Source: Pempheris klunzingeri
Taxonomy: Eukaryota > Chordata > Actinopteri > Acropomatiformes > Pempheridae
Direction: 5' to 3'
Length of the DNA: 64,000 bases
Assembly (NCBI RefSeq): GCF_042242105.1
Contig: NC_092019.1
Location: 17,033,328-17,097,327 of the forward strand
Every line of letters starts with the position of its first letter. Position 1 is the first letter of the stretch. This document shows positions 4,064 to 55,900 of this stretch, one piece after another. The notes beneath the pieces were generated by a model. The model was not told where the DNA came from. It saw nothing but the letters and a program-made list of their open reading frames with translations, and did not search any database. Made by a program: the position numbers and the translations under genes.

Positions 4064-4350
4064 GTAGGTTTAACTACTTCTTGGATAAAAGCCATAACTT
4101 GCAGTGGTTCAACACACAGCAATCATTATTTTCAGTATGTTATTTACAACACCACAAGTGAACGATGTGTATTATGTCATGTGATCTTGGCCACCATTAA
4201 TCATAACTTTACTTTGCCTAATTTCCTGTAACATCTGTTTAATTTTAACTTTTATTTTAAGTCCCATCTCACTTATTAAAGCTCTCATACCCAATGGCTT
4301 TATCATGAATGGATTCAGCTGTATTCTTCCCTCTGATTAGATTTGACACC

Positions 4351-5372
4351 ATGAACCGGGCTTGGGCTGTGTTCAAGGCTCATCCCTACATCAGCAACGT
4401 CCTGGGATACACAATACTGTTTGGCTCTGCTGACGTCATACAACAGAACGTGCTGGGGGGGAAACGCACCGCAGGGTCCACATCAGAGGATCCAGCCGGG
4501 CTGGACTGGCGTCAGACGGCTCGGGTGGCGACTGTCGGCTTCTGTTTCCATGCCAACTTCAACTACCACTGGCTCAGAGGGCTGGAGAGGATGATGCCGG
4601 GAGGCGGAGTAAAGGCACTGACAGGGAAAGTGGTGCTGGATCAGCTGATCGCAGCTCCTCTCACCATCAGCGCCTTTTATATTGGTAAGTGTGTCACAAA
4701 GCCTGTTTTAATCATTTGTTATTCTGCATTTCTAAGATTTTAAATGAAGTGTGTTCGAACAGTCCCTGTCCACACAGCATTTGTCACTGATGTGTTTCAG
4801 TAAAACATTTAAGAGCCACTTTTACCTTTTAGGTTTAAGTTTGCTAGAAAACAAGGATGACCCACTGGAAGACTGGAGACAGAAATTCTGGACATCTTAC
4901 AAGGTACATATCCAGTCAAAGGTCGCCCTTATTATTCACTCCTAAAATGCCATAAATCTCTGTCTTTTTCTCTATAAACCTACCTTCTGCTCCTCTCTTT
5001 AGACTGGAGTGGTATTTTGGACAACAATGCAGGTGAGATATTCTTATATTCACCCTGTCATCAGTCATTTTATAAACATGTAGAGATAATAATAATAATA
5101 ATAATAATAATACTAATACATTTTATTTAGAGGCGCCTTTCTGGCACTCAAGGTCGCCGTACAAGAAGACAGTAAAACAATAAAACATAGAAAATTCACA
5201 CAATATTTTAAGATGAAGCGTGACATCTTTTTCATCTCTCCCACCACCTCAGACGGTGAACTTTGCCCTGGTTCCCCCTGTGGCACGGACAACATTTCTC
5301 GGAGGCATCGCACTGCTTTTCACAATCTACCTGTGTCACGTCAGACAGCAGCAGGTCCAAAAGCTGGAATAA
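4351..5372 (+). CDS. mpv17l: Mpv17-like protein
   Basis: Four coding exons splice in frame: 4351-4684, 4833-4903, 5003-5032 and 5253-5372, giving 184 residues. The product is a Mpv17/PMP22-family integral membrane protein with several hydrophobic helices; family members sit in the mitochondrial inner membrane or peroxisomes and affect reactive-oxygen handling. The block FHANFNYHWLRGLERMMPG is almost identical to human MPV17L (FHANFNYVWLRLLERALPG), as is DQLIAAPLTISAFYIG, so MPV17L fits better than MPV17L2 or PXMP2. The protein starts MNRAWAVFKAHPYISNVLGY, typical of the family; an upstream in-frame ATG at 4309 lies before the acceptor at 4340 and is probably intronic. Exon 4 is only 30 bases. 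The C-terminus is slightly shorter than the human protein. The TAA stop lies inside an AATAAA hexamer (5368-5373); a second AATAAA is at 5634-5639. Confidence 0.9.
5083..5215. repeat. (ATA)n-headed teleost interspersed repeat in mpv17l intron
   Basis: An ATA/AAT microsatellite of about 25 bases is followed by 'tacattttatttagaggcgc' and 'ctggcactcaaggtcgccgt'. This resembles a widespread short fish repeat (consensus words 'aaggcactcaaggtcgc'). It lies in the last intron of mpv17l, about 40 bases upstream of the final exon. It is truncated, and its class is uncertain. Confidence 0.55.
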
Positions 5373-17600: not shown

Positions 17601-20600
17601 TCACATGAAACATCGTATTTCACAGATGTTAACTTAATTAATCCGTCTCAGAGCGTCAGAACCACGCCAGAGAGCTTATCAGAGAGATACTGCTCCCAGA
17701 GTGGGATGGCATCATCATTGTTTCTGGAGATGGCCTGCTGCATGAGGTATGTAATGCTTTTGTTGTAGCACTGAGCCTGGTGGAATTTAGGAGTGCATTC
17801 AAGGGGGAAATTGCAGAGGATACTTATTGTGAATATTAATTGTGTGTTTTTGTACCACATGGCTTAAATTGTGTCCACCCATATGAGTTTTCTGAATTTT
17901 CTGTTCCCATAGGTAATTAATGGGCTGATGGAGCGTCCTGACTGGGAACAAGCAATAAAAACACCTGTCGGCATTCTGCCCTGCGGCTCTGGGAATGCAC
18001 TGGCTGGCTCCATCAACCACAACGCAGGGTAAGCATGGATCTTATTCACATCTGTAATGGTGATAAATGTGTGTCCTTTTCAGTTCAGTCTCAACAAGTG
18101 TGGGACTAAACAAACACTCAACTCTGTGAACACAAGAAGTGGGTAAAGGTATAAAGAATATACACATTGTATTAATTTGTACTTGTATTTTGAGGTCCTA
18201 CTAGATCAACTTTTCAAGTTTATGGTTTAAGCTTCAAAAGACACATCAGGCTGTTTTCAGCCTCTGACTCAACGCATCATATTATACATTTGACATGACA
18301 CCAAGCAAGAGGTTTTAACACTTTGTACTTTTTGTACTTTGTGTTTCCCGCGCCTTAAGGTTACTTTTGTCAGCTAAAACAGACAAATGTAAATAGAGAT
18401 TCAAATGGTGTTGATATGTGGATTTTTTAAAATTGTAAACCAGATTAACCCTTTATCGGGCAAGGGACCATATATGGTAACTTAAGTGGGAGTTCAAAAT
18501 GCAGCCCCTTGCCTCACCATGAGGCAGCAGAACTAAGAGATTTCTCCAAGCCAATCAGCGACAATCAGGCTACATGACAGACCGGCCATATATGGTAACT
18601 TCATTGACCTTGATTCTCCCCATAACATTAAAAAATTTTTTGAAAAACACAAAAGAAAAGAAGTCTTGTAATGACCACCAGTAATGGTCTAGGGTTAAGC
18701 TAGTTGCAAACTCCCAAGTCGTTCCATCTTAATCAAAAGAGCACAGTGTTGCTGTTTTTGTCGTCACCTGGTTATCCAGACCTAGATATCTCTGAATAGT
18801 AGAAGGACTGTATTGCCCTGTTCGTACTGCTCTCTTCTTATCTGTACTGACAGGAAGTGCTGTTGTCTTTTTTTCTCCCTCAGGTATGACATGTGCCTTC
18901 GGGAGCCCCTCCTCTTGAACTGCTGCTTTTTGCTCTGTCGAGGCGGTGTCCGACCCATGGACTTAGTCTCTGTGACAACAAGCCCTCCTCCCTCCAACAA
19001 CAGTCGTACCGCAGCACCCAGGAGACTGTTTTCTTTTCTTTCTGTTGCCTGGGGCTTTGTGTCCGATGTGGACATCGAGAGCGAGAGGTGGGTGTGTAAT
19101 TGCTTGTACTGTAGGAACATCCTCTGTTGGATTTGTTCATCCAAGCATAACTCTTAACTCTTCTGCGATTATCACTTTAGTGTCAGTATAAATTATAGCT
19201 TTATTTGAAATCTTGCTTTTCAGGTATCGTGGCCTGGGCTCAGCTCGCTTCACCCTGGGCACCCTGGTGCGCATAGCTTCTCTTCGATCCTACAAAGGTC
19301 GCCTGTCCTACCTGCCTCCATCTATTTGCACCACATCACCAGATGCCACACCTCCTCCGCCAAGGAGACCTCTCTCCCGCAGTATCACAGAGGGCCTGGA
19401 GGGCTTCTGCCGAACTCCCATCCATCGCACCTGCTCTGACATGGGCATCAGCGAACAGAGGAGCCTGCGTAGGGGTGAGGGAGAGAGGGAGAAGGAGGAG
19501 AGGCAGAAAGAAAGGGAGAGGAGGAGGGAGAGGGCTAGGGGAGGAGGAAGTGGTGTGGTGAGGGCAAGCAGCCTGGCAGAGGACAGAGAGAGGGAACGGG
19601 AGGGGGAGGTGGAGATGGAAGCAGAAGAAGAGAGGTCAGGGACATGCTCGGAGAGATCGGGCACAAGTTCAGAATCAAATGAAAGGGATGATGGCAGTAT
19701 AGGAAGGGTAGAAAGGTTGGCGGGGATCAAGGATGAAAGGGAAGATGAGGGAAGAGTACAGCAATCCAGTGAGATGGAGGAGGAGGATAGGGGGAAGGAT
19801 GGGGAAGGCAGCAGCGGTTCTGTAGAGGGGGAGAGAGTGTTGCATGAAGGAGAAGGCTGTGGGGTGGACATGGGGCGAGAGCCAGATGAAGAGCCAGCAG
19901 TTTGTTTCACATACCAGGAAGGCCTGCAGGAAACCAGACAGGCACTAAGGAAGAATTCAGCTCCTTCAAGCCAGATTGCCAATGCTCTCTTCAGCCAGCC
20001 CCTCAGTCAGGAGGCTGACGCAGATTCTGGCACTTCATACGGGGTAGAGGACATGGATCTGAATGGAACCTACTATCAGAAAGAACCCTACCAGCTGGAC
20101 GTTGCTCGTGAGCGAGCTCTCACCATCTCCTCTCCCTTTCGTCACTCTCCCTTCTCATACAAGCCCAAGACCATGGACCAAAACCAGAACGCCTCACGGC
20201 CAAGGCCCCTCTCCCTCCTCCAGCACTCGCACTCAAACTCCCTCCCCCCTAAACTCCCCTCCCTCTCCCTGTCTCTTTCTCCCACACCTCCATCTTCTCC
20301 CTCATGTGCCTCCCCACACTCCTCATCCTACCTCGTCCCCCGTCCCAACACCCCAAATTCCACCTCACCATCCCCCTCTCTACGCACACCGTCCTCGTCT
20401 TTTAACTTTGACATTGCAGAGCCAGCAGGACCCCAAAAGAACCGTCCTTTCGTCTCACTGCCTTTAAATATCCCCAAGGATGACTTGTTACCCCCCCTCG
20501 ATCAGCCTCTTCCCACCAGAGATTGGGTCACCATTGAAGGGGATTTTGTCCTGGTCCTGGCCCTTTATCAGTCCCATCTCGGGGCTGATCTTCATGCTGC

Positions 20601-21550
20601 ACCCCAGGCCAGGTTTGACGATGGACTGATCCACCTGACCTTTGTGCGGGCGGGGATCTCCAGAGCCACTCTACTGAGACTATTTTTTGCCATGGAAAGA
20701 GGAACCCATCACTCCGTCAGCTCGCCGTATGTGAGCCATGTTACCTGCAGGGCCTTCAGGCTGCAGCCTCTGTCCACACGGGGGACACTCACTGTGGATG
20801 GAGAACTGGTGCCCTATGGGCCCCTTCAAGCGCAGGTCAGAAATTAGGAAAATGGTGCTTGATATTGAATCTACTTGTCTGGACGTAATCTAACAGGAGT
20901 ACCTGTAGGTGATTGGATCTGGTGTGACACTTGATTTACTTTAGTTAGAGATTTTGATTCCACCCATATATGAAGCACATATGTGCTGATGTAACTGTAA
21001 TACGATTTGTAGAGCCGTGCCAGCGATAGTATTTTGATTGTGGTCAATCAAAGTCGTTTCCTAGGTCATATAGCCTTATAGACCATATACTCTGTTAAAT
21101 ACTCATCTGGTAATATAGAAGCCTGAATTTTAAATCCCCCACATGTAACGTCTCATCTAATTTATGTCCTACAGGAAAAACAATTGTGCAGAATTATGTT
21201 AGATGTTTTGCATTTTTTCCAGCCCATACAATTACTGAGAAGTGATAAACAAGTGTTTTGTATTATATAAGCTTTTAATAATTCATTGATTGTTACACAT
21301 TCAAATGGTTGACAATGACGCATGATTATATATTTTTTTCCTGACTATTAGGGAACTGTGTTGTATCTGTAGCAGACGTACCGTAAGCCCCTGCCCTACA
21401 AAGTATTAATGCTGTAGAGTTATGTTGATGAGTCACTGCCAGGCTTATCAGTAATAAGAATAATAATGATTTCTCCATATTTCACAGGTTCATCCTTCCA
21501 TGGCTCGTCTCATCGTTGGGGACTCTGGAGTGAAGATTACCAGATTCTAA
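14674..21550 (+). CDS. sphk2: sphingosine kinase 2
   Basis: Seven coding exons splice in frame: 14674-15136, 17417-17566, 17652-17746, 17913-18028, 18884-19087, 19224-20835 and 21488-21550, giving 900 residues (human SPHK2 is 654). The enzyme phosphorylates sphingosine with ATP to sphingosine-1-phosphate, in the nucleus, ER and mitochondria. The N-terminal extension with LLHGQFASWG and ALTLTHTHIHIQRL matches SPHK2, not SPHK1. Kinase motifs are present: LLLLVNPFSGRG, VSGDGLLHEVINGL (nucleotide-binding GDG loop), GILPCGSGNALAG, AWGFVSDVDIESER, and after the insert DWVTIEGDFVLVLAL and ARFDDGLIHL. The start is the first ATG of the exon opening at 14666, with A at -3; the longer upstream frame lacks an ATG. 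About 400 residues in exon 8 (roughly 19320-20510) interrupt the catalytic domain where human has a shorter Pro-rich loop. Here it is Arg/Glu-rich, then Pro/Ser-rich. The gene lies between rpl18 and cyth2. Confidence 0.95.
15446..15932. mobile_element. non-autonomous DNA transposon (MITE-like) in sphk2 intron
   Basis: The two ends are inverted copies: the left end reads GCTGCGGTTACATGGA, and the right end read in reverse is GGCTGTGTCTACATGGAC. The roughly 490-base interior has no coding capacity. It also contains repeated 'acatgga' and 'attaatggga'-type words typical of teleost elements with 'tttacatgga' termini. I cannot settle whether it is PIF/Harbinger-like or hAT-like, because the target duplication is not clear. 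Several mismatches between the ends suggest an old copy. Confidence 0.55.
18445..18698. mobile_element. piggyBac-like MITE with TTAA flanks in sphk2 intron
   Basis: TTAA at 18445-18448 is followed by CCCTTTATCGGGCAAGGG. The other end reads GGTCTAGGG before TTAA at 18695-18698. TTAA duplication with CCCT ends is the hallmark of piggyBac-type insertion. The ~250-base interior is non-coding. It holds two direct copies of 'ccatatatggtaactt' (about 18468 and 18589). Confidence 0.6.
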
Positions 21551-28100: not shown

Positions 28101-31100
28101 GGCCTTGAAATATCCTCTGCCCTTTTTCTCCTTTACTATGAGCTACGTGTAACTGTTCTCTCCCAACTCTCTGTTGCTCTTCTGCAGGGACGACTTCAAC
28201 ATCAAAGTTCTTCAGGCTTTCGTCGACCTCCATGAGTTCACTGATCTCAACCTCGTCCAGGCCCTCAGGTAAACCGTGTTTGTTTAGCGTGTTTTGCTTT
28301 GAGCAAAGGACAAAATCTCTTATCCTGGCATTCTCTGGTAAACAAACCTTTTCAACAATGGAAAGTCCCACTCTCATCATCACAGCAGGTTAGGGAGGGA
28401 AAAGATTATGCAAGAGAGAGTATTAGTGAAAGTGTAACTTGACCTAAACCTCGACCTTTTTTTGCAGGCAGTTCCTGTGGAGCTTCCGTTTGCCTGGTGA
28501 AGCCCAGAAAATTGACAGAATGATGGAGGCCTTTGCTCAGAGATACTGCCACTGCAACCCTGGCGTCTTCCAGAGCACTGGTAAGCACAAACACATGTTT
28601 GTAGGGTAGGCGGGGTAGCCTACCTATTGTACCTAATGTAGGATGTTCTGACTTCTGTGTCCCTTTAAATCAACCTTTCTTTTCCTTCGATGGAGCTCAG
28701 GAAGGGGCATTTCCCAGAAGGTGTGCACTCACACAAACAATGAGCCCCTTCTCAGAAATGACCTGCTATGTGAGCCCATAAAGTTCACCAGTTTGTGAAC
28801 CTTGCATTTCACTAAAAAAAAAAACATTGTTTGTGTTTGATTATTGATTATTTCCTTAAATTATTTGAGATAAGACTTGTTCAGAATTCCCAGACTTTCT
28901 GTTTTCAGATAGTACTAGGTACCTGTATTTTTTGAATCATCAAATTGATTTGTGTTCTTTTATTTCCAATATTAAGGCAAATGTGTTAAATTGTTTATTT
29001 TATTCTCTGTGCAGTACTGAACTCAGAGCTCTTGTGTTTTCTTGCGTGTCTTTCCTGTTCGCAGACACATGTTACGTGCTATCATTTGCCATCATTATGC
29101 TGAACACAAGCCTCCATAACCCAAACGTGAGGGACAAACCTGGAGTGGACCGTTTCATCTCAATGAACCGAGGCATCAACGAGGGGGGAGACCTGCCTGA
29201 GGACCTGCTCAGAGTACGAGGATCTTTGCGTTGTTTTTCTTTGGAGATGGCTCAGTGATAACTAAGATAAACCTAGTAAGGAGATTTTGAGTTGGCTTAT
29301 TTTACAATCTTATCTGTCATTCCAGAATCTCTACGAAAGCATTAAAAATGAGCCCTTCAAGATCCCAGAGGACGACGGCAATGACCTGACACACACCTTC
29401 TTCAACCCAGACAGAGAGGGATGGCTTCTTAAACTCGGTGAGATGATGCAAGCTAGGCCTTTCTGCCTCGTTGTGGAGTCCTTCTACCCTACATGTTGCC
29501 TTTGACACTGATCTTGTACAATTAAACAAATCCAGTACGTCACTGTTTCAGATGTCCAGGGTGTACATTTCCATTGAGAAAAGAATGTGATATGTCCTGT
29601 ATGCTGCTGTATTCAGTCCTCTTTTAAGGCTTTGTGTTATGATGTCTGTCTCGAGGTTTGCTGGCTTTTTGCCTCCACTTGAATCGTCACCTCCATGTTG
29701 TGGCATTTGAACACTGCCACAGCATGCTGGTGAACAATAAGCTCACTTTCTTCCGTCACAGCAGTCTAAAAATCTGATTGTTTTCTTTTGCATGGCGGGG
29801 CCTCTGATGTCTGTGTCACTAATATAATCTCCCTGTGTTTCTCTTCCTCCTCCCCATCTGTCCCTCTCTCTCTCTCTCTCTGTCTCTATTTGTCCTCTGT
29901 CTTCTTCTAAATCCTCCGGTCCCTCTTGTCTGTTTCTACCCTGCGATTTCCACCCTCTACTGCCGCTGCTTGTTTTCTCAGGAGGTATGTACTGCCAGAG
30001 TTGTTGTCGTTAAAAAGTTATAGAAAACAGTAGCCAAGTAGTCAGCTGTAAAAATGTAGAGACTGTAGAGTAGCATCCCTTCAACTTTGACCCCCAAAGG
30101 AAACCCTTTTCCTCTCCTCTCGCTCATCGCCATGACGGTGTTCTTGTGTTTCAGGGGGACGAGTGAAAACCTGGAAACGGCGATGGTTCATTCTCACTGA
30201 CAACTGCCTTTATTACTTTGAATACACCACAGTAAGTCTTTGTGTCCAAGTACGCCATTTAAGTGAATTTGACAGTGGAAACAATGCACTGTGCCTGCAA
30301 GGAAGTATGCTCACTGATCCTGAGGATTAGATGCATAACTTTATTAATCCCTGCAGGAAAAACTGGATTGGCTGCTTATGTACAATCAAAACAAAAGAAA
30401 CTGAAGTCAGACTGGTCACAAGAGACAACATATCCAAGACACACAGTACTACTGTTAAAATACTAACACACAAAACGAACACATATTCCAAGAGGGCGTT
30501 AGTACTGCTCAGGATCACACAGCCAGGAAGTTAAAAGTCAAACAAGAAATGTACAATTAATCATAAACTGACAGGCTAGCCCTAAGTGATGCACCCAAGA
30601 ACAAGACGATTTCAACTATGACCTGGTTTGATATTTTGGTTACACACTAATTACAATATTTAATGCTGAGATAGCAATGCAAGAGATAATGCAGAGTATG
30701 GTTGAATTTCTGCGCCCTGATTAAACACATAAAATGCAAAATAAAGGACTTGTACTGTTGCAGCAACTCATAATCAGCTGTGATTGTGTGTTTCACTAAC
30801 AGGATAAGGAGCCTCGAGGTATTATTCCCTTGGAAAACCTTAGTATCCGCGAGGTGGAGGACCCAAGAAAACCCGTAAGTTCTCACTTTGGCTGAACAGT
30901 ATAGGAAAATGTAATTATCATAGGAATAATTTTCACAGGTTAGTGAATGTTGTGATTGTTTACCCAGTTTTTTTTCATCACTTCTCTACCAATAGAACTG
31001 CTTTGAGCTGTACATCCCCAACAACCGCGGTCAGCTCATTAAGGCGTGTAAGACAGAGGCTGATGGCAGAGTAGTGGAAGGAAACCACAACGTGTACCGC

Positions 31101-36510: not shown

Positions 36511-39500
36511 TTAGTGACAGGGGTCAAAGGGGTATCTGGAAACGCCGCCATGAAGCTCCACCTCTGCCTCGGACCAGGCGATGACATCTCCTCTGAGGTG
36601 GCTGCCGCAGGATGCCAGGCTGTAGATGTCACTGCCGGTCAGGACGTGTGACCACATGTGCAAGTCCGACATCTCGCCCACGAATGACTGAGTGGCGTCA
36701 AAACGGCCTCCTAGAGTGTCCTGACGAAGAGTGAACAAACAGCTGGTTCACCAAAAGGTCAACGTTTCAGACAAAATTCATGAAAGAGAATTAAATGATA
36801 TATAGAGTAAAATATAAAGCAAGAGTTTTGATAAAAGAAACCTTTTGTAGAAACAATGGATAAAGGCTTCCCAAATAAGAATTTAACACACTCCTTTTCT
36901 ATATTCAGTGGCTCCCATCTGAACTCACTCAGAGGTTTTCTACATCTGCATTGTGCATTCACAGAGATTAAATCTCGTTGTGTTTACCTGTTCCTGTCCC
37001 AGGATGAAGACCCCTCCAGGTTTGATAGGGTGCCAGGGGGAGAGATTTATCCCGGACCCCCTCTGCACTCCGTCCTGGTAGGCCTCCCACTGTCCGTCCC
37101 GCGTTGTCCACGTCACACACACGTGGTGCCACTTCCCGTCACCCAGAGACAGGGGGAGCGTCACAGCCTGAAGGATGGGATGGTGAAGATGGTGAGACAC
37201 TAATATAAACACATCCTGGGATGATACAGTTAAGTAGACAAGCAATAATATAGTTTGTTATTAAACAGTATAAATATGTCTGTGAGATCTCCTGCCTGTT
37301 TGACTCATTATCTAAAAGTTTTTAAGCCAGAATGAACACATTTAAATTCTGGATCTCACTCATAACGACCACCAGTGCATCCTCTTGTAAAGTTATACCT
37401 TTCTTTTAAACTCAGTTTTTATTTAATCTTGACAGCAGGTGCGGAGAGGGTTGAGTTTGTCTTTTTTAAAGCCCCAGACAGCTTGGCTTTGAATCAGAAG
37501 TATTTCTCTATACCAGTAAATATTTGTGATTTAAATGTGTAAAAATCCAAAATCTAATTTTCATCATTTTAATGAATAATACTAAACTCAGCTAATCTGA
37601 GGTCGATGTCGGTATAATTTGATCGGTTTTGATTGACACAAACAGCCAACTGCCATCAAATTCAAAGATTCAAATGTAGTTGAATCCTAATTGGTGCACA
37701 GACAAGCCAGCGAGAAGCACACAGAGAAAAAAATGCAGAAATATCTAATGTCAAACAGTCAATAAATCATGTGAGATCCCATCACTCTGAGCTGAACTCA
37801 CTGTGCTGCAGGGTTTCTATTTCATCTATCTCACCTTGTCATCGATCAGCAGCTCCATGGGGTTGTTCCCCCACTCGATGAGCACCAGTTCGTTGGCCTG
37901 TCCAGGTGCCGAGTAAGAGAAGGGCGTCCCCAGGCCGGGCCCTGTGCCGGCCTTGATCCAAAGACACAAAGTCAGAGCGAAGATCTCCTGCAGCAGAGTC
38001 CTCTTCATCCGCCCGTACATGTAGTTGTTTCTCATGGGGAAGCTGATCTGGAAGTGGTCAGGACTCTGTAATTTCTTCCTGCTGGAACCTGTTTTTTTTT
38101 TTGTAGAGAGATAACATCACACCATGACAAAACAATCTCACCTTCAGTGATATAAGTATATAAGGATCATTTAGTAACTTTAGTAATGAAATTATATTAT
38201 AGATGTCCACATTTTAATTTTTCTGAGCAGTTGAAGCACACCACACCCATGTGAAAGCCTGAAAGTTGGAAAAAGCAGGTGACAAAACAAGTTAAGGTCT
38301 CAACTGTCCATTCAGTAGCTGTTCTGGAGCTTTTGGTCTTTACATTGTTTTGTCAGCGGCTGCTTCTGACGTCAAGAATGAACTTTGAAACTCTACCAGA
38401 CTCCTGTTTTGAGAAATAAGATAATGACAGAAATAAATTGAAAGTCCAAAGTAGAGAATTTCTTATGAAATAAGCTGTTTTTTTTGCAGGAAATTTGCTA
38501 AAATAACATCCCACACACTGCAAGTTTTTTGGGAGAGAACATAAGCAGCTGCAGAATATACAACTTACATAACCTACACTTATACTGAAGGCTGCTTTGT
38601 TAATGGGAAGTTGGCTGTTGGGAGCGTGTGTGTGTGTTTGTGTGTGTGCATGTGATTGCATGTCCTGGACTTGCTGCAGTGGTCATGTACCTGCCAGGTG
38701 CAGCTGGTTGAGCATCGTTTCCAGTTTATTTGAGTGGAGTCCAGTCCGTGGGCCTGGTGCTCTGTATCCTGTGTGTGGAAAGTGACTGTGACTGTCTGCT
38801 TCATTACTGTGGTGGTGGTCATCATCATCATCATCATCATGGTGGCTGTCGTCGTGGTCACCGTGGTCGTCGTGGTCACCGTTGTCGTCATGGTCATCAT
38901 GATGACCATCTGCATCGTGATGGTCATCAATGTGGCTGTCGTCATGATGGTCGGCGTGGTTCCCACTGTCACTGTGTCCGCCATCGTTGTGGTCGTCCCT
39001 GTGGTCTGTTGGGTGTCCGTCATCATGGTGATCACCATCGTCATCGTGATGGTCTGTGTCGTCGTCGTGATGGTCCGGGCTGCTGAGGGCGGAGGTGCGA
39101 TGGTGCAGCTGCTGCTCCAGAGTGCTGATCTTCCTCTGAAGCAGGTCTTTCAGAGAGCTGGAGTAGGTGATAGACGTGTTCCTCTTCTGCTGAGGGAGGT
39201 GAAAAATACACAGATGAAGTTTTGATACCAACAAGTATTGAGTGTCACCTTTTTACAACAGAGAGGACAAAGTCTTCAATAGTGCTTTGGCAAAGATGCA
39301 AACTGGCCTTGAGGAATCATAATCTGTCACCCACACGCCTCAGAGAGAACTTGTCTGTCTTTTGCACTTCTTACATTCAGCATTAATCTTGTATGTCCAA
39401 TTTAATTCAGTCAGGTATGCTGTCTGCCTGTCTTCCTGCATCTGCCTCTGCTTCTCTTACTCTCAGGTAATCCAGGCTTTGTCCTGGCGCGTGCCCTGAT

Positions 39501-40821
39501 TACCAGTCTGTCAAGGGAGATCACGATAATTACTGCTGATGTTAGACTCATGCCACCCCCCCAATGCACCCCACACCCACTCCACTGCTCCTGACATCTG
39601 TCTGTGATCGTGATCCAAGGCGGAGAGAGCACAGAACAGGGCGGGTAAATGTACCAAGAGAGTAAAAACTGTGATTATCTGAAGAAAAAACATCAAAATT
39701 TTCACCAAAGCCTAAATGTGGACTGTAACCTCATGCAAGAGTATCTGACATCGGTGACGTCCACCTCTGAGCCCTTTTGCTGCACTGAGGGACATCAAAG
39801 TGACTCTCTTGCTAATGTAGTGAGTGGGTTTATGCGATTAAGTAATCCATTGAACCTTTGTCTAAAGTACTTAGCAGACATGCTGCTTTGGGACTTGATT
39901 ATTCGACAAACAATCAAGTGACGGCAGCGTTAATGTGTCCAAACAAGGAAAAGCCATATATGGGCACAGCGTACGTCACAACTCTTTTTGAGTCCTCTGC
40001 TGTACCATATTTACTGTTAAGTCACTTTTTCATGCGTACACTCATGTTCTCTCCATCATCTCTATAGTTTTGTTCTTCAGTTATCTCTATATCTGAGTAC
40101 AGAGTTGTAAAAGTTTCCCCCTCTTGCTGCTCACCTGCAGGTTGTCCAGCCGCTCCTTCAGCGCCTGCAGCATCCTCTCCATCTGCTCTGGTGATGATGT
40201 GATGTCCCCTGGTGTCACATGTTTATCCTTTCCCTGGTTGCTGCTGCTGCGCCCTCCATCAGATCGTTGCCCCCCTACAGAGGGGTAGTGAGGTGAGTCC
40301 GGTATGAGGTTGCTGTTTCCATGGTGACCCTGCTGGTTGCTATAGTGCCCATTGTCAGTGTATGTGTGATGACTGGCCACCCCTGTGTGATGGGAGTGCG
40401 AGTCTCTGCCGTGGTGCTCGTCATGAGGCGTGGTGCCCCGTCCGAGGCCCTCGCACAGGGTTAGCTTGGCCGTCAGCTCTCGAATGGTCTCCCTCTGGTC
40501 CAGGATGGTCTCTTTCTGCTGGACAAGGCTCTCCCTGAGGTGGAGGATGGTGGCTTTGGCTTCTTCGCTTGCCCCCCACCAGCCAGCGGGAGGTGCGCTT
40601 TGATGGCCTGGTCCGCTGGGCCCTGCTGCCCCTACGCCTGGACCCGCTGAAGGGAAGCAGGCAGGGTCCGCATCCAGCGGGATAGGGGTGCAAACGAAGC
40701 GTGGCTGGGCTCTGTAGTCATAGTCAGGCCCTGAACTGGCAGACGCAGGGTGGAGGAGGGGTGACAGTAAAGGAAACAAAATGAGAAAAAGGAACAGGTG
40801 TAGAGACTGAGAGTTCCTCAT
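36511..40821 (-). CDS. neuronal pentraxin-like protein with Asp/His-rich insert
   Basis: Five coding exons on the minus strand: 40821-40135, 39189-38691, 38088-37835, 37167-36988 and 36720-36511, giving 609 residues (625 from the upstream in-frame ATG at 40869). The inner ATG is chosen because it starts directly at a signal peptide (MRNSQSLHLFLFLILFPLL). Order of parts: signal peptide; a conserved block near PRFVCTPIPLDADPACF; the neuronal-pentraxin coiled coil QQKETILDQRETIRELTAKL; a His-rich tract; a second coiled coil (SSLKDLLQRKISTLEQQL); a 98-residue Asp/His-rich block; then the pentraxin domain. That domain carries the family signature HHVCVTWTT plus FSYSAPGQANELVLIEWGNN and GGRFDATQSFVGE. 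Known relatives (NPTX1, NPTX2, NPTXR; about 430-500 residues) are secreted, multimerise and cluster AMPA receptors at synapses. All intron phases close correctly. The exact paralogue (zebrafish nptx1l-type or a 19q ohnologue) is open. Confidence 0.9.
38782..39075 (-). repeat. low-complexity Asp/His-rich coding block in the pentraxin
   Basis: Residues about 268-365 of the predicted protein contain 41 Asp and 29 His in 98 positions, arranged as DHHDDD-, HHDDG- and DHDDHG-like units and ending in a D7-H3 run. On the plus strand this appears as gtggtcatcatcatcat-type trinucleotide DNA. The block lies between the second coiled coil and the linker to the pentraxin domain, inside one exon, and the reading frame stays open throughout. 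Confidence 0.9.
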
Positions 40822-52900: not shown

Positions 52901-55900
52901 TTTTACGTACACTGTGCCAGATGTTCGATGTGTACTTTACGTTTTAAAATGTTTGTAATTGCAGCTGCACAGTGGATGGTTTTCACAGAAGGAATACATG
53001 GTGGGTTGGTTTTTTTGAAATCCTTTCAAAACCTCAGTGGTTAAATTCAAACATGCATGTAGTGGAGTTGTTCCTGGTAAAGGTGGGACAAAGTCATTGT
53101 TTTGCAAGTCACATGTAGCTCTCTAGTCTTTGCTTTGAAGTTCCAAGTCCTCTTTGGACTTGATTTGAGTCTTAAATTAGTGATTGTAGAACTAAAAACA
53201 GCAACATAATGGGAAGTAAGTCTTTATGTGGTCTGAGAGATCAAGTCATTGGCGTTAAAGTCAAACTTTTTGATTTTGTCAATTTGAGACTTAAGCCACC
53301 AAATTCCACACTTCTTGTACTTAGATGATGAACAATTTAGAAATTTTAGACATTGGCAGTAGTTTTTAGTTTTAACAGTAACTGCTCATTTCTCTTAGTT
53401 AACAATATCTCTTCTTGTTTTTTCAGAGGCTCTCTGTTCAAGAAGTCCCTCCCCTGCTGAATGGAGACTCCAGTCGCTCCCAGCAGCAACGCTCACTTCC
53501 CTCCTCCTCCCTGACGGAAACCTGCCCCCCCCAGACATTCTGCTCTCTCTCCACCGGAGGAGCTGCTGGAGGTGCGTCCCAAGGAACGTCTCCTCAGCAC
53601 ACCAGCACGCCCGTCAGTGCATCAGCCAGCCCCCTCCCTGACAGCAGTGTCAGCGGCAGTGCCAGCCCCGCTGCATCCACCCCCACCACATCCAGCAGCT
53701 CGGCCCAGCAAAGCTCTGTTCTGCTGGCCACCAACACACAGAACCTCTCCCCGTGCCTCATCCCCTCCACGGTGATGTCGATCAGCCAAATCTCCCCGGT
53801 CAGCAGCTCTTTGCAGGGCATGACCCTCCCCATCCCACACAGTGCTCCTCACAGTCCTCCACTGCCCCACAGTGCTCCCCTCTCCAGGGCCATGACTCCT
53901 GTGCAGTCACTGCACCAACAGGTGGGACCAGGAGGAAGCAACACTTCCTCACCATCACATAATCCTTGGCTGCTGAAGACTGCAGAGATGTGTGCTACAT
54001 CAACACTTCCACTGCCAAGGAGACCTGCCAGTGAAATGAGGCTGGGCGGCTTTCAGGGTACGATGTGATAAGTCACCTCTGTGTGTTTGAGTGTCTCCAT
54101 CTACATTCTTTAAGTTTTAATCCTTGTTGATTTTAGTCCTTTTTGATTTGGTGACAGGCATTTTTACTGTGGAAAACACTCACAGAGCAGCTAATATGTC
54201 AAAAACACAGCAGAGGAGCAACTAGTGTACCTGTTCACAGGGGAGCCAAACAAACTCATTGTTTGATTTCATGAAAATATTAAGATTATAACTCGTGTCT
54301 CACCTGCATCCAGGCTCCAGTCTCCCCAGGATGCTGCCTTTGTCTGGACCTACGTGTGTGGAGGCCATGTTTGCCCACACTCCTGGAGCACCGGAGGGTG
54401 GCGGCGTAGGGGGCGGAGCTTGCTTACTGCACTTCCTGCCTGGTGACAAGATCACCCTTCTCATCTCTGAGGCCAGAGACGGGTGGCACTACGGTCAGAA
54501 TGAACGAACTGGACGGTATGCACAAACAGCACAAGAGAACACTTAGTGATCTGCCGTATAACTTGGAACGGCCTTTTAATGTTTAGCATCATTCTGATGC
54601 ACAACATTAGACCACACGCCATAAGACGAGGCTGCATGACTTTGGTTCTGGCTAGAATGTCAAGATTATGTTCAGGCAGCATAATTGCCAAAACAAGTCA
54701 GGGACACATTTCCCCTTAAGCTCCTGTTCTCTTATCTAGCTTTCCAACCTCAGAAGACGTCACATATCACATGTTGTGTGCAAGCACCAAAATAACATAT
54801 CTTCATATTAGCTGATATAAGAAAGTTTTCTTCACACACACCCCTGTCTTGCTGCCATTTTAATATTTAGTTACATATGGTAAAACTTTCCTTCACAGGA
54901 AAGGCTGGTTCCCTTTCTCCTACACTCAGCCACACCACAGTAGGACAGATCATCTCGAGAGGTAAGTCCAACAATCAGGTCAAAGAAGAAATTCTGAACC
55001 CTGCTGATTTTCAGGCCGTTGATAAACTTTGACACTTTCACTTCCCTTTAGCAGTTTTAAAACTCATTATATCAGCAATACTTTGAGAAGAAGGAAGTTA
55101 TGATATTGGTTTCTTCACAGAAAACGTAATGGTTTCCCAATACGTTCAATTTGCTCCAACACCAACAGCACTGCAGTTGAATTAACACAAAACCAACATC
55201 TCATCGTGTTTCCTTTGTCTTTCCCCCTCTGTATACTCTTTCCTCTCCGTCCTTCCCTTTAGCTCTCTCTTCTTATCTAAGGCCAACAGCACCAGCACGG
55301 GCCAGCTGGACAAGCTGGTGTCTCCAGGTTTCCAAGCCCTCACCCCTGAATCGGAGGAGGAGCGTTCCCTTCCTCCCCAGAGGGTCAGCACCTTCCGCCC
55401 ACGCCCCTACAGCATGGCCGACAGCAACAAGGTCAGGAACAAGAAACCCAGCTGATCCCGCTGTTGATGGACGACACGCAGACGCTTCGTGACGATGGCA
55501 ATTTAGTCAAAATATTCTTGATGATGATATTATCTCTTCTTTATATTACAGATCACCTCAGAATTGGCCTCTCCACCACCCTCCCCAACCAGGTAACAAT
55601 GAGCAATTCAAAGGTGCTCTGTGGGTGTCATTAAAGGCGCATTCCACCAATTTCATAAGTCAAAGTCAGTTTACTAGTCACATTACTCTGATCACTAGAG
55701 TAATTTTGGGTTTGGCTTGGGGTCTACAAACTTTTAACACAAAGCCTGTTTACAAACTAAAAGCGTCAAGTTTGTTGGATGTTGGTGGAGGGTCTAACGA
55801 AAGAAGCAATGATAGGACCCATGTGTTTTTGGTACTTTGACCATCACTTTTTAGCCAACTTAGCAGTGCGGCTCAATGATCGGAACTGCCTTTCTGTCTG

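Follow-up and report, generated by a model that had tools for sequence, protein, structure and literature searches.

The window analysed here, a stretch of 64,000 nucleotides of the Pempheris klunzingeri genome (C8:17033328-17097327), carries a neuronal pentraxin gene whose second exon encodes a long block of aspartate and histidine. We asked whether this block is an accident of one repeat or an inherited part of an unusual pentraxin, and what it might do there. To our knowledge, nearly all work on neuronal pentraxins has dealt with NPTX1, NPTX2 and NPTXR. Among the matches listed from the open-access full-text literature, no title or opening of an abstract concerned an Asp/His block in a neuronal pentraxin. 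Neuronal pentraxins are described as clustering AMPA receptors (PMC8866268, in extract).

The window gene is an intact neuronal pentraxin. Its model is complete, running on the minus strand from 40821 to 36511 with five coding exons and 609 residues; the introns are GT-AG, the exon phases fit, and a stop codon at 36511 closes the reading frame. This bears out the original prediction of a neuronal pentraxin with the block in one continuous exon and correct splice phases. The coding exons are as follows:

40135..40821, minus strand: exon 1 (coding part), with a hydrophobic leader, cysteines C44, C55 and C123 and the first coiled coil (helix 86-128); donor GTGAGC
38691..39189, minus strand: exon 2, where the Asp/His block divides the second coiled-coil segment; phase 0 in and phase 1 out, with acceptor CCCTCAG and donor GTACAT
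37835..38088, minus strand: exon 3, pentraxin domain
36988..37167, minus strand: exon 4, pentraxin domain
36511..36720, minus strand: exon 5, end of the pentraxin domain and stop codon

The C-terminal pentraxin domain matched Pfam PF00354 at 112.8 bits (cut-off 25), and its best solved matches scored almost equally: NPTX2 (9lad, 311.9 bits; 120 of 202 residues identical) and NPTX1 (6ype, 311.3 bits; 124 of 202). The pentraxin signature HxCxS/TWxS reads HVCVTWTT, with the final Ser replaced by Thr; the human NPTX1 and NPTX2 records, as excerpted, have HICVTWTT. The protein resembles the secreted NPTX1 and NPTX2 in a pentraxin domain 59-61% identical to the solved ones, in a coiled-coil N-terminal half and in three N-terminal cysteines (C44, C55 and C123). 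PMC8866268 likewise gives three N-terminal cysteines for each of NPTX1 and NPTX2 and five coding exons for NPTX2, as in the window gene. It differs from both in its length (609 residues against 432 and 431 in the excerpted records), in the 98-residue Asp/His block that replaces the short hinge of the second coiled coil (CC2), in a His-rich spacer in exon 1, and in forming its own group in the tree described below. In the exon-1 model (mean pLDDT 60.5), a leader helix was followed by a confident helix at residues 86-128, disorder at 141-195 and a further helix at 211-228. Two coiled-coil segments are consistent with the predicted helices at residues 86-128 and 211-228 and at exon-2 residues 13-35, the prediction being of helix rather than of coiled coil and CC2 being interrupted. 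Sub-threshold Pfam and NCBIfam matches to the N-terminal half were discarded as evidence.

The block and its surroundings within exon 2 comprise:

39085..39153, minus strand: predicted helix ahead of the block (exon-2 residues 13-35)
38782..39075, minus strand: Asp/His block of 98 residues (Asp 41, His 29), predicted to hold neither helix nor strand
38848..38896, minus strand: the only tandem array listed inside the block, with an 18-bp unit in 2.7 copies
38695..38730, minus strand: short predicted helix after the block (exon-2 residues 154-165)

The block occupies exactly 98 codons (protein residues 268-365), and the count of 41 Asp and 29 His originally given for it was exact. The remainder comprises eight Gly, seven Ser, four Asn, three Ala, two Thr and one each of Pro, Arg, Ile and Glu. 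With 70 Asp and His combined, it is the richest 98-residue stretch that any of the window's six frames contains; a different reading of its own DNA gave 34, the next non-overlapping stretch at most 21, and the maximum in 30 windows simulated from a first-order Markov model was 20. A spurious frame was ruled out, since the block codons are continuous with properly spliced exons and a conserved domain. We did not count the openness of the frame itself, because other frames are open there too. Two further candidate signals were set aside: the EF-hand-like pattern D-x-[DNS]-x-[DNS]-G occurs once in the block, which is the shuffled level, and a test of CpG at the block boundaries gave p = 0.056. 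No solved chain matched the block at E up to 10, in a search that handles such biased composition poorly.

The position of the block differs from the one that had been proposed, which had it separating the coiled coil from the pentraxin domain. Folding exon 2 alone from its single sequence, at low confidence (mean pLDDT 59), predicted no structure through the block and a helix on either side of it, within CC2. At the same exon-2 place, NPTX1-type genes of this genome have a short hinge (EEGKPGLRNETEQ in one copy). Since predicted helices flank the block and the NPTX1-type hinge falls at the matching place, we assign the block to the CC2 hinge, so that it interrupts this coiled coil. Transcripts that splice around the block are not favoured by the sequence, because a scan of exon 2 for internal splice sites found six bare GTR triplets, with no GTRAG donor and no polypyrimidine-AG acceptor.

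We next looked for relatives of exon 2 by a DNA search of the fish's own genome (646 Mb). Eight matches were recovered: exon 2 itself, two pieces of a single locus on C16, and five elsewhere. The C16 locus is a second neuronal pentraxin, which has the exon layout of the window gene from exon 2 onward; its exon 1 is an open frame, modelled without a fixed start codon. At the same site as in the window gene, its exon 2 carries a block of 190 residues, 80 of them His and 51 Asp. A conserved Asp/His composition with variable length, named beforehand as a test of selection on the block, was thus found in this second gene. The two genes have diverged. Their pentraxin domains are 72.3% identical, compared with 83.7, 80.1 and 63.8% for the other within-genome pairs, and identity is 61 of 89 residues in the N-terminal part and 20 of 29 in the coil ahead of the block, dropping to only 8 of 32 in the stretch just after it. 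A search of the same genome with the block protein returned only the self-match; it missed the C16 block and is uninformative on how frequent Asp/His blocks are.

The two genes also share a second histidine-rich region, in exon 1:

40222..40428, minus strand: first His-rich spacer, residues 132-200 (limits set by eye), 12 His in 69 residues

The corresponding spacer of the C16 gene has 27 His in 76 residues. In the window protein, the spacer is mostly predicted to be disordered (pLDDT below 50 at residues 141-195), and its His enrichment, within limits set by eye, gave p = 1.5e-5 in a comparison with the remaining protein from which the block and the next 35 residues had been excluded. The tandem-repeat list of the window has no entry within this spacer.

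To place the pair among its relatives, we collected the neuronal pentraxins of the genome. A pentraxin-domain search gave at least 37 matches, among which exon pattern, identity and later reads identified eight neuronal-type loci; the remaining matches were weaker. The exon-2 hinge region was located in all eight loci, and the block was present in two, those on C8 and C16. The other six (C17:13.50M, C3:26.08M, C20:14.46M, C17:15.61M, C17:11.71M and C3:5.04M) have 0-5 Asp and 1-3 His in an aligned stretch of 49-71 residues, so the expectation that NPTX1, NPTX2 and NPTXR contain nothing similar was upheld at six of six such loci, with no more than five Asp and three His in each. Pentraxin-domain scans of other genome contigs (26 pattern matches) and of viral contigs (one) yielded no confirmed relative.

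Built without an outgroup from the pentraxin domains of these eight loci and the solved ones of NPTX1 (6ype) and NPTX2 (9lad), a tree separated four groups: NPTX1-type (98/97), NPTX2-type (92/92), NPTXR-type (100/100) and the block pair (100/99). When a Limulus pentraxin was added as a very distant outgroup (branch above 6), the tree did not resolve the block pair, whose members came together in 34% of the bootstrap replicates. Support for uniting the other eight rows was 87/99, and neither block copy fell inside the other groups. Lying outside all three named groups, the window gene does not class as an orthologue of NPTX1, NPTX2 or NPTXR. It shares with NPTXR the pentraxin domain and the coiled-coil layout, but NPTXR is a type II transmembrane protein. 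The two NPTXR-type loci of this genome have no block, and their pentraxin domains are 49-54% identical to that of the window gene; exon 1 of one of them (C3:5.04M) opens with what resembles a membrane anchor. On these sequence comparisons, the block genes are most naturally read as a fourth subfamily of neuronal pentraxins, distinct from the three named ones. Four groups of two genes each would be the expected outcome of two vertebrate rounds and one teleost round of duplication. An origin of the C8 and C16 genes by whole-genome duplication would draw on their divergence and on this count of two genes per group; we infer that the two share an ancient origin.

The surroundings of the window gene offer a further comparison. 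Two recognisable frames lie on its flank:

19192..20847, plus strand: sphingosine kinase frame with a long insert, SPHK2-like, about 16 kb from the pentraxin gene
28869..29258, plus strand: open frame with a cytohesin Sec7 exon, about 7 kb from the pentraxin gene

The kinase frame has 551 residues, compared with 305 and 314 for the two other matches in the genome, with the insert between its two matched parts; such an insert is a feature of SPHK2. The 54-residue Sec7 match scored highest with cytohesin-2 (97 bits), by a small margin over cytohesin-1 (93) and cytohesin-3 (89). Members of these two families also occur near other neuronal pentraxin genes of the genome. On C17, an NPTX1-type gene has a sphingosine kinase at a distance of about 0.2 Mb; cytohesins are found about 0.15 Mb away from an NPTX2-type gene on C20 and, on C3, about 0.6 Mb away from one of NPTXR type. 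In the human genome, SPHK1, CYTH1 and NPTX1 are located on 17q25, and SPHK2 and CYTH2 are near neighbours on 19q13, where no pentraxin is known. The natural reading of these neighbourhoods would be a fourth neuronal pentraxin that mammals have lost. On C16, none of the sphingosine-kinase, cytohesin or MPV17-like query exons of the window had a match, and the C8-C16 pair therefore shows no synteny by these queries.

The tetrapeptide DHHD occurs five times in the window block, against 1.5 expected from shuffles, and 17 times in the C16 block, against 2.4; H-x-H is depleted in both (2 against 8.2 and 1 against 33). Third-position purines, which would turn GAN and CAN codons into Glu or Gln, are rare (1 of 71 such codons in the window block and 2 of 133 in the C16 block) compared with codons whose second base is not A (9 of 23 and 6 of 36; Fisher 6.5e-6 and 0.0013). 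Each block contains a single Glu. The repeat units differ, being 18 bp in the window block and 12, 24 and 39 bp in the C16 block, and this, like the shared site and the His-rich exon-1 spacer of both genes, speaks for inheritance and constraint. The ratio of Asp to His also differs (41:29 and 51:80), which speaks against constraint, as does the divergence of the residues that follow the block. On balance we regard the block as inherited and probably constrained, short of proof, although copying of repeats alone may account for the composition, the shared motif bias and the codon bias.

A serious competitor to this reading is that the hinge simply tolerates inserts. A GAY/CAY repeat would then predate the split of the two genes and have since grown and decayed under little selection beyond staying in frame and hydrophilic. 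Both copies contain tandem arrays, their lengths differ (98 and 190), their Asp-to-His ratios have drifted, the residues that follow the block are poorly conserved between them, and poly-Asp arrays occur in other open frames of the genome, all of which this explanation accommodates. It accounts less readily for the retention of an Asp/His block in both diverged copies, for the avoidance of Glu and Gln, each one third-position change away, and for the His-rich exon-1 spacer of both genes, which in the window has no listed tandem repeat. We consider it quite possibly correct.

GAY-type repeats do occur elsewhere in this genome. Four of the five further exon-2 matches were translated; three of them (C15:16.78M, C8:25.74M and C12:5.63M) are open frames with long poly-Asp arrays. 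The fourth (C16:12818313-12821428) is a minus-strand frame of 664 residues, rich in Asp and His, with DDHDADDRDDHDADG-type repeats; its end is formed by a single hydrophobic stretch of membrane type with a short tail, and it does not resemble a pentraxin.

Our preferred reading, held tentatively and with a little less than even confidence, is that the block is an inherited, disordered Asp/His spacer of a two-copy fourth subfamily, which would bind metal, titrate with pH and thereby tune the clustering of the pentraxin heads. NPTX2 is built from trimer units, which its CC2 segment forms by itself in the absence of Ca2+; CC2 joined to the pentraxin domain gives larger assemblies when Ca2+ is present (PMC12799932). 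The window protein would similarly multimerise through its N-terminal cysteines and coiled coils. Because a disordered block sits in the CC2 of such a multimeric assembly, several blocks could lie side by side and form a polyanionic brush. The DHHD motifs, His pairs flanked by Asp, may then bind Zn2+, Cu2+ or Ca2+ with high capacity. Assuming a His pKa of 6.5, the net charge of the window block was calculated as about -38 at pH 7.4 and -19 at pH 6.0 (-30 and -14 with an assumed pKa of 7.2), and acidification would thus cancel about half of the block charge by protonating His. Metal or acid would in this way compact the spacers and alter the spacing and clustering of the heads. Beyond composition, location and predicted disorder, each step of this mechanism, from metal binding and pH switching to any clustering or synaptic effect, is our inference.

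The calculated charge of about -38 at pH 7.4 and the predicted disorder would also suit a spacer that works without metal, in which the charge of Asp extends the stalk or binds cationic partners in the matrix and His merely dilutes it. Charge alone does not require the near absence of Glu from both blocks, and the C16 block has more His than Asp; we therefore consider this explanation rather improbable. The species-specific microsatellite that had been named as the alternative is made unlikely by the two diverged paralogues of this genome, and a lone microsatellite was rejected on the C16 copy, given its block, the shared DHHD and H-x-H bias and the exon-1 His spacer in both genes, even though tandem repeats do feed the block. 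Repeats are prone to assembly error, but such a microsatellite, or an assembly artefact in a non-functional gene, is very hard to reconcile with two loci that have an open frame, correct splice sites, a conserved pentraxin domain and different repeat DNA.

Histidine-rich proteins for which metal or haem binding has been described include HRC of the sarcoplasmic reticulum, HRP2 of Plasmodium and histidine-rich glycoprotein. Like the block, these are repeat-fed and His-rich, and HRC is also acidic; the likeness lies in these features, the block itself having matched no solved chain. Should the inherited-spacer reading hold, a fourth subfamily whose stalk can be titrated by metal and pH would offer a natural experiment on the control of assembly by stalk chemistry, and would supply a specific candidate for an organiser of synapses that responds to zinc or acidity. 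The pair is also an instance of a low-complexity block shared by two diverged genes with differing repeat units. We also put forward a bolder version, which we consider doubtful as a whole: that fish have kept this fourth pentraxin in two copies since the teleost duplication, that mammals lost it, and that it acts as a zinc- or acid-gated synaptic organiser through an HHDD-type stalk block.

Expression of neuronal pentraxins in fish has been recorded in several contexts. For the neuronal pentraxin-like gene nptx1l, presumably of zebrafish, PMC4690400 reports expression in the spinal cord, the cranial ganglia and the pharyngeal arches. In eels, an nptx1 of unspecified paralogy was raised about 20-fold in uninfected swimbladder tissue of silver eels (PMC4876612, in extract) and also appears in the gene table of a study of the rete mirabile (PMC8638102, in extract).

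Two other frames in the window were recorded. Positions 4309-4743 form an open frame that resembles an exon of the MPV17 family; it had no Pfam match, and weaker copies lie on C3 and C17. At 53403-54068 on the plus strand, a long open frame rich in Ser and Pro, also with no Pfam match, was noted.
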